Of a DNA stretch of 36,946 nt, positions 24,691-29,282 are shown in pieces. The notes below the pieces were generated by a model. The model worked only from the letters and a program-made list of their open reading frames with translations. It was not told the origin of the DNA and did no database searches. The first letter of the stretch is position 1. Each line of letters opens with the position of its first letter. The DNA is taken from NCBI GenBank assembly GCA_027483385.1, contig JAIXUT010000090.1:1-36946 (forward strand), given 5' to 3'. Origin of the DNA: Alphaproteobacteria bacterium. Lineage in GTDB: Bacteria; Pseudomonadota; Alphaproteobacteria; UBA2136; UBA6156. The translations under genes and the position numbers were made by a program.

Positions 24691-25536
24691 ATGATTGGCG
24701 TGTTTGACAGTGGCCACGGCGGCCTGACGATTTTTCGGGAACTGACCGCGCGGTTCCCGAAGCTTAGTTGGATGTACTACGGCGACCACGCCAACGCGCC
24801 TTACGGCAACCGCGCGGGCACTGAAGTGGTGGATTTAACCCAGGCCGCGGTGGCCAAGCTGTTTCTGGCGGGCTGCAAGCTGGTGATTTTAGGCTGCAAT
24901 ACTGCTACCGCGGTGGCGGGAAAAACCTTGCAACAAACCTGGTTGCCGCACGTGAACGCGCAGCGGCCTGGGCACCGCGTGTTGGGGATTATCGCGCCGA
25001 CCGTGGAAGCCGTCACCCAGACCCCTTGGCACGTCAAGGAGCCTGTGTTTCCGCAAAAATATAACACCGATACTGTGGCCTTGTTTGCCACCCAAGTCAC
25101 AGTCAACAGCGGCGTGTACGAGGCCGAAATTGCCAAGCGCTGCCCGCAGGTGCGGGTGCTGAAAATGGCCTGCCCGAAGCTGGTGCCGCTGATTGAAGCG
25201 GGGGCGCCGCAGGCCGACCTTGCCGCCGCTGTGACCGACTACGTGGTGGCTTTGCTGGCAACTACCGAGATTGCACCCGCCTACGCCATTTTGGGCTGCA
25301 CGCACTATCCTTTAGTGGCGCAGCATTTTCGGGCCGCATTACCGCCGGCCACCCGGTTGCTGAATCAGCCTTTGGCGGTGGCCAATGCGCTGGAAGATTA
25401 CTTTGTCCGCCATCCCGAGGTGGCCAGCGGTGCCCATGCGGGGCTGATTCAGTACTTTACCAGCGGCGAAGTAGGGGAAGTTTCCCGCGTGGCGGAACTG
25501 TTTTTGGGGGCGCCCGTGCGGTTTGGGAAGTTGTAG
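24691..25536 (+). CDS. murI: Glutamate racemase
   Basis: MurI converts L-glutamate to D-glutamate for the second residue of the peptidoglycan stem peptide, which MurD adds. The 281-residue cytosolic enzyme has the N-terminal VFDSGHGGLT with catalytic D6/S7, catalytic C69 in GCNTATA and C203/H205 in GCTHYP. A longer loop than usual (about 112-140, HVKEPVFPQKYNTDTV) lies between the lobes. The start has AGGATT upstream. It is convergent with bamD, with only 9 bp between the two stops. Confidence 0.97.
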   Translation: MIGVFDSGHGGLTIFRELTARFPKLSWMYYGDHANAPYGNRAGTEVVDLTQAAVAKLFLAGCKLVILGCNTATAVAGKTLQQTWLPHVNAQRPGHRVLGIIAPTVEAVTQTPWHVKEPVFPQKYNTDTVALFATQVTVNSGVYEAEIAKRCPQVRVLKMACPKLVPLIEAGAPQADLAAAVTDYVVALLATTEIAPAYAILGCTHYPLVAQHFRAALPPATRLLNQPLAVANALEDYFVRHPEVASGAHAGLIQYFTSGEVGEVSRVAELFLGAPVRFGKL

Positions 25537-25545
25537 GGGTTAAGC

Positions 25546-26358
25546 CTAAAACAAATCTTCCACGCCGCGTTTTAACTTTTGGGCCCAGGTGGCGCGTTGG
25601 CCTTTGGGGGCGAGATTTTGGCCCGTAAGCAGGTCGTAGGCTTTGGCGTACCAGTCACTGTTGGGGTAGTTATAGCCCAAAATTGCGCCCGCCCGCTGGG
25701 CTTCATCGGTTACGCCTAAGCTCAGGTAGCTTTCCACCAGGCGGTACAGCGCTTCTGGCGCTTGTGTGGTGGTTTGGTAATCCTTCACCACGGCCTTGAA
25801 GCGGTTAATGGCGGCCAAGGGCTGCTGCTGTTGTTGGTAAAAGCGCCCCACCACCATTTCGCGGCCTGCCAGGTGGTCTTCAGTCAGGGTAAGTTTTAAT
25901 TTGGCATCTTGGGCATATTTGCTGGTCGGGAAGCGGTTCACCACTTCCTGAAACGCATCGCGCGCCAGGCGGGTTTGCGCTTGGTCGCGCATCACGTCGG
26001 TGAGGCGGTTGTAGTGGTTCAGGCCCTTTAAGTAGAACGCGTAGGGCAAGTCGGGGTGGCCAGGGTTTTGCCGAATAAAGCGCTCGAGGCTGACGTTGCT
26101 TTCCTCAAAATTACCGGCCTTGTATTCGGTGTAGGCCTCCATAATTTGCGCCCGGGTGGCCCAGCCGCTGTAGGGGTATTGGCGCTCCAGCTCGGCGAAC
26201 TGGTGGGCTGCAGCGTCGTAGTTGCCTTTTTGCAGGGCGTCCATGCCATCGTTGTACAGGCTGCCGATGGTCCCCGTCAGCTCGCCTTCGGGCTTGGCGG
26301 TGGCGCACCCCACGAGCAGGCAAGCAACCATGGATACACCCATAAGTTTAAAAAACAC
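25546..26358 (-). CDS. bamD: Outer-membrane assembly lipoprotein BamD
   Basis: BamD is the essential lipoprotein of the BAM complex that inserts beta-barrels into the outer membrane. The product has lipobox LLVGC (Cys about residue 18). About five TPR repeats follow (YNDGMDALQKGNYDAAAHQF, RFIRQNPGHPDLPYAFY, FQEVVNRFPTSKYAQDA, EALYRLVESYLSLG). The start is uncertain: GTG 26358 gives MFFKLMGVSMVACLLVGC, ATG 26343 is shorter and the open frame reaches 26496. The longer versions would run through a 10-bp hairpin at 26402-26429 and put extra residues before the signal, so I prefer 26358. It ends beside convergent murI. Confidence 0.93.
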   Translation of the reverse strand: MFFKLMGVSMVACLLVGCATAKPEGELTGTIGSLYNDGMDALQKGNYDAAAHQFAELERQYPYSGWATRAQIMEAYTEYKAGNFEESNVSLERFIRQNPGHPDLPYAFYLKGLNHYNRLTDVMRDQAQTRLARDAFQEVVNRFPTSKYAQDAKLKLTLTEDHLAGREMVVGRFYQQQQQPLAAINRFKAVVKDYQTTTQAPEALYRLVESYLSLGVTDEAQRAGAILGYNYPNSDWYAKAYDLLTGQNLAPKGQRATWAQKLKRGVEDLF

Positions 26359-26473
26359 ATCAGGCCGAGAAAATTTTTCATGTTTCTCCGCAGCCTGAGC
26401 ACCGCAAGCGTACAAATAAGTACGTGCGGAGCGGAGGGCAAGGAAAACTGAAAAATTAGCCGGCATCATGTGT

Positions 26474-27253
26474 TTAAGAATAGAAGCGGTACGCATTACG
26501 GCCTGCCTTTTTCACGGCATACATGGTTTCATCGGCGGCCTGCATCAGGGCTTCCACCGTGGCGCCATCGGTCGGAGCCACGGTAATGCCGATACTGCCA
26601 CCGATTTTGATGCGGGTATTGTTCACCCACATCGGTTCGTTCAGTAAATCCAGCACCTTTTGGGCCCGTTCTTCGATCAGGGCTTTATCGTTCATGCCGT
26701 AAAAGACAATCAAAAATTCATCGCCGCCCAAGCGGGCCACGGTGTCGTTTTCGCGCACGCAGCTGTTCATCAGCTCGGCCACTTTCAGCAGCACGGCATC
26801 GCCCATTTCGTGGCCGTACTGGTCGTTCACGGGTTTAAACTTGTCGAGGTCGATGTAAAACAGTGCCAGCGGTTGATTGCGCTTGAAGGCACTTTCGAGC
26901 TTGCTAAGCACCCCACGGCGGTTGGCGAGGCCCGTTAAGGGGTCGGAATTGGCTTGCTGGGTGGCTTTGTCGTGCTTGCCCAGGCGGTTGATGGCGGCAG
27001 TCAGGTTGCCGAGCTCATCGATGCGCGGAGTGGCCACCGCTTCAGGCTGCAGACCGCTTTCCAGCTTTTCCACCTGTTGGCGCAGCTGACGGGCCAAGGC
27101 AGCGTCGGCCTGCACCAGCAGCAAGGCCACGCCGTACATGCCGCCTGCAGTGACCAATAAGCCTAGCAGAGGATGCGTGAATAACCCGAGCGCAATCCCC
27201 ACCAGTGCGGCTGCGCCCATCGGCACGGAAAGCCGCTGTACCATCGTTTTCAT
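26474..27253 (-). CDS. Diguanylate cyclase (GGDEF) in the division cluster
   Basis: The 259-residue protein has two membrane spans (about 12-27 and 30-47), a helical linker (about 50-100) and a GGDEF domain (about 101-259). The catalytic motif GGDEF is at 176-180, FYIDLDKFKPVND binds metal and nucleotide, and the inhibitory I-site REND is at 167-170. It is therefore predicted to make c-di-GMP with product inhibition. It lies 74 bp downstream of ftsQ and upstream of bamD on the same strand, probably read from the division transcript. No ribosome site is clear. No sensory domain is visible beyond the membrane part. Confidence 0.94.
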   Translation of the reverse strand: MKTMVQRLSVPMGAAALVGIALGLFTHPLLGLLVTAGGMYGVALLLVQADAALARQLRQQVEKLESGLQPEAVATPRIDELGNLTAAINRLGKHDKATQQANSDPLTGLANRRGVLSKLESAFKRNQPLALFYIDLDKFKPVNDQYGHEMGDAVLLKVAELMNSCVRENDTVARLGGDEFLIVFYGMNDKALIEERAQKVLDLLNEPMWVNNTRIKIGGSIGITVAPTDGATVEALMQAADETMYAVKKAGRNAYRFYS

Positions 27254-27327
27254 GAAAACAAGCTAACGAATCGCGCCTTGGGCTGCAAGCGGCAAAACGG
27301 TCACGCTGCCGAGGCGTAAGGCATCGT

Positions 27328-28284
27328 TTAGTTGGCGCTGGAGGCGCTGACGTGAGAGGCAGGCTTCAGGTTGGTCACGGGGGTGACCGCCACAGTGGCA
27401 GGCAGGCGCAGAATAATCCGATCCGGCAGGCGTAAATCTACCACACCGTCATTTAAGGTTAACACATGCCGCGCAGCTTCGAGGCGCACCAGCAATTCAA
27501 TGCCTTCCTGTACGCGGCCTGCTGGCAGCATCACTGTCACGCCGCTGACAAAGCGTAAATCCCAACGGCGTTCGCCCACCCAGCTGGCTTCGCGCAGTTG
27601 TAGCAATAAATTGGGGTATGGTTGCAGGCGGGCAAAAAGCTCGCTGGCGTGGTTGGGTGCGCCTTCGCCTTGTAATAACGGCAGCCCGACAAACGCGTTG
27701 GCGGTATCGGCCACCACCGGCGCGCCCTGCGCATTGAGCACAAAAACCACACTGCCTGAAATTGCGCGCGCCAGCGGCACGTGTTCGTAAATTTGTACTT
27801 TCACCGTGGCAGGCAATTGGCGCTCCACGCTGGCCAGCCGCACCCAGGGCAACTGCTCGATGCGCGCCTTGGCGGCGCTGGCATCGAAGCCTACCAGGCT
27901 GCTGCCACGCCCGAGGCCCAAGCTGTTTAATAAATCGGCCTGGGCGGTATGGGTAAGGCCTGTCACTTCAATTTTTTGTACCGTGGCGCCCGTGGCTTCG
28001 GCGATGGCGGTGGTAACTTTATCGTTTAGCCAACTGCGGTTATCCCACGCCCAAAAGCCGCCCCCCAGCAGTGCCAGTAACAACACCGATTGCCGAATGC
28101 TGGCCCAAGGCCATTGGCCTACGCGGGCTTCCAATCCTGCCAAGCGTTGCCGCCAGGCGGGCAGGGGTTTGGGTGCCGATTTATCGAGGCGCGTTTCGCC
28201 TGTGGCGGCACTCATGGCTTCGCGCCGAATTTCGGCATTTTGGAAGAGATCGCCTAAACTTTCGCGCTCGAATGGTTTGGTCAT
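27328..28284 (-). CDS. ftsQ: Cell division protein FtsQ
   Basis: FtsQ is the bitopic inner-membrane protein linking early and late division proteins. The 318-residue product has a long cytoplasmic N-terminus, one membrane span (about 65-81), a POTRA domain (about 100-172; VQKIEVTGLTHTAQADLLN, ARIEQLPWVRLASVERQLP) and a beta domain to residue ~290. The start overlaps the murB stop by 4 bases (ATGA), indicating coupled translation. It is normally followed by ftsA; here the next gene is a GGDEF protein. Confidence 0.93.
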   Translation of the reverse strand: MTKPFERESLGDLFQNAEIRREAMSAATGETRLDKSAPKPLPAWRQRLAGLEARVGQWPWASIRQSVLLLALLGGGFWAWDNRSWLNDKVTTAIAEATGATVQKIEVTGLTHTAQADLLNSLGLGRGSSLVGFDASAAKARIEQLPWVRLASVERQLPATVKVQIYEHVPLARAISGSVVFVLNAQGAPVVADTANAFVGLPLLQGEGAPNHASELFARLQPYPNLLLQLREASWVGERRWDLRFVSGVTVMLPAGRVQEGIELLVRLEAARHVLTLNDGVVDLRLPDRIILRLPATVAVTPVTNLKPASHVSASSAN

Positions 28285-29282
28285 GCCATACTTCCCCCCA
28301 CACGTTCTCCGACAAACCTTACCTCACGTTGCATGGTGATGCCAAGGGTTGCCAGCACGGCGGCTTCCACGCGCACCGAAAGCCGTTCCATCTCGGTGGC
28401 TGTGGCGCTGTGGCCTTCTTTGAGGCCAAGGTTGACAAAAAAATTGCAGTGCTGCTCGCTCACTTGCGCGCCACCTTCGCGCCAGCCACGGCAGCCTGCG
28501 GCTTCCACCACCCGCCAGGCATTGATGACCTCGCCGACGTTGCATTCAGGCCAAAACCGTTGCAACTGCAGGTGGTTTTCGGGCGTGACTGGTACGTTTT
28601 TAAACCAGCTGCCCGAGGAAGGCAGGTGCAGTGGCTGGCTGGTGCTGCGGGCGTGGTTAATCTCGCGCATCTGTTGCCGAATGGCTTCCTTATCGCCCAC
28701 CGTAAGCTGCCACCGCGCCGCCTTGTACAGCCAGCCTTCAGGCAACACCGTGCCACGGTAGCGGGGCTGCACAAAACTTGGGGCTTCAACGATTTCTTGG
28801 CCACGGTCATTGAGTAAAATAACTTCCGCAATGGTGTTGAAAGTTTCGTGGCCATAGGCCCCTGCGTTCATGCGCAACGCACCACCAATGCTGCCTGGAA
28901 TGCCACCAAAAAATGCCAGCCCCGCCAGCCCGGCTTCGCGCGCCGCCCGTGCCACGGTGCCGCAGGCGGCGCCAGCTTCGGCATAGATGCTGGTGCCCTG
29001 CACCTCTATTGAATCGCAGCCCTTGCCCAGTGGCACCACCAGCCCGGCAATGCCGCCATCATTCACGACCATGTTGCTACCTTTTCCAAGCAGCGTGAAG
29101 GGGATGGCATGCGTGGTGACAAAGGCCCGCAGCGCTGCCACTTGCGCCCAATTTTCACATGGTGCCCACACCTGGGCAGGGCCACCGACTTGAATGGTGG
29201 TTTCGGGCGCCAACGGGTAATTGCACACATAAGCTGGGCCAGCAGGTAGTTCGACAAACCAGGGGGGTGTGGGCCAGTTCAT
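28281..29282 (-). CDS. murB: UDP-N-acetylenolpyruvoylglucosamine reductase
   Basis: MurB uses FAD and NADPH to reduce UDP-GlcNAc-enolpyruvate to UDP-MurNAc. The 333-residue enzyme has the FAD domain (TTIQVGGPAQVW, LLGKGSNMVVNDGG, FFGGIPGSIGGALRMNAGAYG) and the C-terminal domain with SSGSWFKN and GGAQVSEQHCNFFVN. A roughly 20-residue insert (about 240-262, ENHLQLQRFWPECNVGEV) separates them compared with shorter family members. It is tightly packed: the start is 15 bp after the murC stop, and ftsQ overlaps by 4 bases. Confidence 0.97.
   Translation of the reverse strand: MNWPTPPWFVELPAGPAYVCNYPLAPETTIQVGGPAQVWAPCENWAQVAALRAFVTTHAIPFTLLGKGSNMVVNDGGIAGLVVPLGKGCDSIEVQGTSIYAEAGAACGTVARAAREAGLAGLAFFGGIPGSIGGALRMNAGAYGHETFNTIAEVILLNDRGQEIVEAPSFVQPRYRGTVLPEGWLYKAARWQLTVGDKEAIRQQMREINHARSTSQPLHLPSSGSWFKNVPVTPENHLQLQRFWPECNVGEVINAWRVVEAAGCRGWREGGAQVSEQHCNFFVNLGLKEGHSATATEMERLSVRVEAAVLATLGITMQREVRFVGERVGGSMA

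Follow-up and report, generated by a model that had tools for sequence, protein, structure and literature searches.

In alphaproteobacteria, the dcw cluster usually runs in the order murB-ddl-ftsQ-ftsA-ftsZ-lpxC-bamD. Individual genes are documented to be lost or delocalized from dcw in bacteria (PMC8871954). Another described system that resembles part of the locus studied here is the Rickettsia palindromic elements (RPEs), which are dispersed hairpin repeats that are read in frame inside conserved genes (PMC2229807).

The window analyzed here, a stretch of 36,946 nucleotides, is a complete contig (C146) of a fragmented draft MAG (1.94 Mb, 233 contigs, 89% complete). Minus-strand ORF calls, checked against Pfam and NCBIfam profiles, confirmed the order murB, ftsQ, GGDEF diguanylate cyclase gene, bamD (Table 1), with murF-mraY-murD-ftsW-murG-murC upstream of murB. 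As in the usual alphaproteobacterial cluster, the genes from murF to ftsQ are co-linear on one strand and keep the conserved dcw order. The window differs from that cluster in that ddl, ftsA, ftsZ, and lpxC lie elsewhere and a GGDEF gene is placed between ftsQ and bamD. Neither ORFs nor profiles revealed any of these four genes between murB and bamD in the window; contrary to the usual order, ftsA and ftsZ are thus not directly behind ftsQ. An earlier sequence-only reading had described this gene order from murF to bamD together with a 4-base overlap of murB and ftsQ and a 74-bp gap between ftsQ and the GGDEF gene, all of which agree with the ORF coordinates and, for the order, with the profiles. 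The GGDEF and bamD genes overlap by 23 bp, such that bamD starts within the 3' end of the cyclase gene. On the other side of bamD, a glutamate racemase gene (24691-25536) is convergent with it; at this place, one congener (G002) and one genome of the sister genus (G007) have an apparent recN after bamD.

Table 1. Features of the 3' part of the cluster in the window, with the profile or search that identified each
Feature	Position	Strand	Evidence
murB	28281-29282	-	PF02873 and PF01565; NF010480 above cut-off
ftsQ, last remaining division gene of the cluster	27328-28284	-	PF08478 (POTRA_1) and PF03799
ftsQ-GGDEF spacer, 74 bp, with promoter-like dyad TTGCAG-N17-TAGCTT near the GGDEF ATG	27254-27327	-	
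Diguanylate cyclase gene, product predicted to be membrane-anchored	26474-27253	-	PF00990, E=6.8e-47, 159.7 bits
bamD, BAM lipoprotein	25546-26496	-	TIGR03302, 269.6 bits (cut-off 81.4)
Dispersed hairpin repeat in the bamD frame, ahead of the lipobox	26356-26469	-	Own-genome search and folding

A profile search of the genome's own contigs located all four missing genes outside the window, so that loss of ftsZ, ftsA, lpxC, or ddl is rejected and the earlier suggestion that ftsZ had moved elsewhere holds. The ftsZ gene lies on contig C22, near nusB, a DUF84 gene, greA, and dnaG; ftsA lies on C143, with dut on one side and a very long ORF on the other; and lpxC adjoins dnaN on C8. A protein with both the N- and C-terminal domains of Ddl is encoded on C139, with NCBIfam scores under the curated cut-offs, so that the name ddl is given by domain architecture. 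The reading frame of this protein (L013, G000:C139, 8529-9965) spans 478 aa; the Ddl homology begins after about 69 residues, and extra sequence separates the two matched stretches of the C-terminal domain. A second ATP-grasp candidate for ddl, on C94, proved to be a biotin carboxylase and was rejected. Separately, a copy of the repeat family described below (L015, G000:C8, 3601-3675) is found 57 bases upstream of the start of the lpxC ORF (3733).

The absence of ftsZ and ftsA from the cluster is the one observation that would fit an organism lacking both genes and dividing by some other mechanism, which had also been proposed from the window. FtsZ and FtsA are, however, both encoded at full length (397.5 and 400 bits, respectively) and are 92-96% identical among congeners, which leaves an alternative mode of division with next to no probability. 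The neighbors of ftsA (dut and the long ORF) are the same in the congener G001, and those of ftsZ (greA and dnaG) are the same in the congener G003, indicating that the relocated positions are settled in the genus.

The same junction was found in a close relative. G001 (JAIXXE010000017.1), a second species of the genus and an independent MAG, carries the GGDEF-bamD pair behind ftsQ after a spacer of 77 bp, with an FtsQ that is 70% identical to that of the window. As the genome is a fragmented MAG, assembly or binning could in principle have joined stretches that do not belong together at the ftsQ-GGDEF junction; the shared junction and similar spacer in an independent MAG make such an artifact highly improbable, and an assembly join at 27254-27327, which the sequence-only reading had raised, is rejected on the same ground. 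In the sister genus (G004-G010), ftsA directly follows ftsQ in all seven genomes, and ftsZ and lpxC are located further downstream of ftsA in G005, G006, G007, and G009, while the contigs of G004 and G010 stop shortly after ftsA. Across the wider comparison, 49 of 56 stretches (47 of 53 with three repeated contigs removed) have ftsA behind ftsQ. G008, unlike its congener G005, shows neither ftsZ nor lpxC in the 7.7 kb past ftsA (L072, G008:C50, 8031-17001), suggesting that the dcw cluster has apparently been broken more than once in the family, independently in this case. Among the genomes compared, no ddl was detected between murB and ftsQ in any member of the family, and several other families of the order do have it at this place. 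The congener G003 is about as near to the window genome as G001, and the genus tree, with a bootstrap of 54, gives no order of rearrangements; the compared genomes are fragmented MAGs, and the G003 contig ends within ftsQ.

The cyclase gene itself has a different conserved neighbor. Its best orthologue adjoins bamD or lies at most 1.3 kb away from it in the congeners G001-G003, in the sister-genus genomes G005-G010, and at the order level in G012, with one gene for a Cytochrom_C_asm membrane protein between the two in G005, G008, and G012. The 23-bp overlap of the GGDEF gene with bamD is common to the window genome, G001, and G003. The gene that precedes the cyclase is variable: it encodes a ParA-like protein in G002 and G005 (and, by the look of the sequence, in G007) and an MFS protein in G003, and among the genomes examined it is ftsQ only in the window genome and G001. 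The GGDEF gene is therefore ancestrally a neighbor of bamD and not of ftsQ. A search of the literature returned nothing relevant on an operon that joins a cyclase to bamD. G011, which belongs to another family of the order, has a GGDEF gene beside bamD as well; this gene is a different one (32% identity) and lies in divergent orientation (L187, G011:C6, 3790-5289).

The spacer ahead of the cyclase contains a candidate promoter. A standard sigma-70 scan returned no site in the ftsQ-GGDEF spacer. Comparison of orthologous upstream regions revealed a −35/−10-like pair of hexamers at the same distance from the GGDEF ATG in nine of nine family genomes, whatever gene lies upstream, the nine sequences being related and the dyad a weak consensus match (6-8 of 12). 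The first hexamer is found about 36 bases before the ATG and the second ends about 7 bases before it. At this shared offset the summed dyad score reaches 65, compared with a maximum of 52 at any offset in 300 shuffles and up to 42 at the next best offsets. Because the dyad keeps a fixed distance to the ATG in all nine genomes regardless of the preceding gene, the cyclase probably has its own promoter. With the second hexamer so close to the start codon, the mRNA would begin at or near the ATG, and the transcript is perhaps leaderless, a type of mRNA known in alphaproteobacteria (PMC7566282). In G007, G009, and G010, inspection by eye of the upstream region showed an inverted repeat rich in GC with a run of T behind it, resembling a terminator of the preceding gene.

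These observations bear on a further reading, in which the division operon has taken in the cyclase, a single transcription unit runs from ftsQ through GGDEF-bamD, and c-di-GMP levels track division-gene expression. Consistent with such a unit, the genes lie on the same strand with a spacer of 74-77 bp, and ftsQ and the GGDEF gene are adjacent in two species of the genus. Moreover, a standard scan detected no terminator on the minus strand between the two genes, so that some read-through from ftsQ into the cyclase gene is possible. However, the spacer motif also occurs where ftsQ is not upstream, other genes precede the cyclase in G002 and G003, and the ancestral partner of the GGDEF gene is bamD. 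We therefore regard recruitment into the division operon as unlikely, and, as the main reading, the earlier proposal that division-gene expression governs c-di-GMP synthesis lacks support.

The layout is instead that of a known cluster which has been secondarily rearranged, and the adjacency of ftsQ and the GGDEF gene is best read as recent. We propose that chromosomal rearrangement in one genus of this uncultured alphaproteobacterial family split the dcw cluster at its 3' end. It would have sent ftsA, ftsZ, and lpxC to separate sites, ddl having gone earlier, and would have brought a long-standing unit of diguanylate cyclase and bamD directly behind ftsQ. The cyclase gene would have a promoter of its own immediately before the ATG, its mRNA perhaps lacking a leader, and would be translationally coupled into bamD through the gene overlap, with the adjacency to ftsQ incidental and read-through optional. 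Taken as a whole, this account of a split dcw 3' end and a relocated cyclase-bamD unit, with a probable promoter of its own and ftsQ next to it by chance, appears to us quite likely to be correct.

The cyclase comprises 259 residues, with two hydrophobic helices in the hydropathy profile, a linker that appears HAMP-like by eye, and a GGDEF domain. An alignment of nine orthologues showed that the GGDEF motif (residues 176-180) is invariant, as are R167 and D170 of the I-site RxxD (REND, starting at residue 167), which is located five residues before GGDEF; the intact catalytic site and I-site noted earlier were thus found at residues 176 and 167, respectively. The AlphaFold model has a mean pLDDT of 73.5. 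Between congeners, dN is 0.07-0.19 and dS is at or near saturation, indicating that the gene is under purifying selection. The protein is expected to be an inner-membrane enzyme that would synthesize c-di-GMP subject to product feedback at the I-site. With its intact motif and RxxD I-site it is similar to membrane-anchored GGDEF cyclases and resembles many solved GGDEF chains; it differs from them in its linkage with bamD across the family and in that no sensor domain was recognized.

The bamD product is a TPR lipoprotein that scores above the TIGR03302 cut-off and carries the lipobox LVGC. A hairpin repeat lies in frame between its start and the lipobox, in the signal-peptide region, and the surrounding region (26350-26475) folds at −51.3 kcal/mol (z −7.0). 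The repeat is absent from bamD of G001, G002, and G003, and without it the leader would resemble an ordinary lipoprotein signal peptide such as G001 and G003 have. The repeat family has 20 matches in the genome, including the bamD copy, and most of the other copies examined are located between long ORFs. Eight of ten other genomes of the family contain matches, and the seven genomes taken from other families of the order contain none. A sample of 385 genomes across the class gave 6 with matches, and the three of these that lie outside the family matched more weakly. The repeat is thus found mainly in the bacterial family of the window genome. Similar to RPEs as they are described, the bamD repeat (~115 bp) is a dispersed hairpin that forms part of the reading frame of a conserved gene; it differs in belonging to another lineage and in that the other copies examined look mostly intergenic.

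What looked like a loss of ftsZ thus turns out to be ordinary gene relocation. As the cyclase accompanies bamD across the family and probably has its own promoter, the arrangement reflects mostly ordinary gene shuffling and not a new form of division control, and attention shifts from ftsQ to bamD as the conserved neighbor of the cyclase. Further-reaching, and in our estimate rather improbable, is the idea that a membrane cyclase is co-expressed and functionally tied with BamD throughout the family, so that c-di-GMP would be coordinated with envelope assembly, with read-through from the division cluster in addition in this genus. The family-wide linkage of a small diguanylate cyclase to bamD nevertheless gives a starting point for testing a link between c-di-GMP and outer-membrane assembly.
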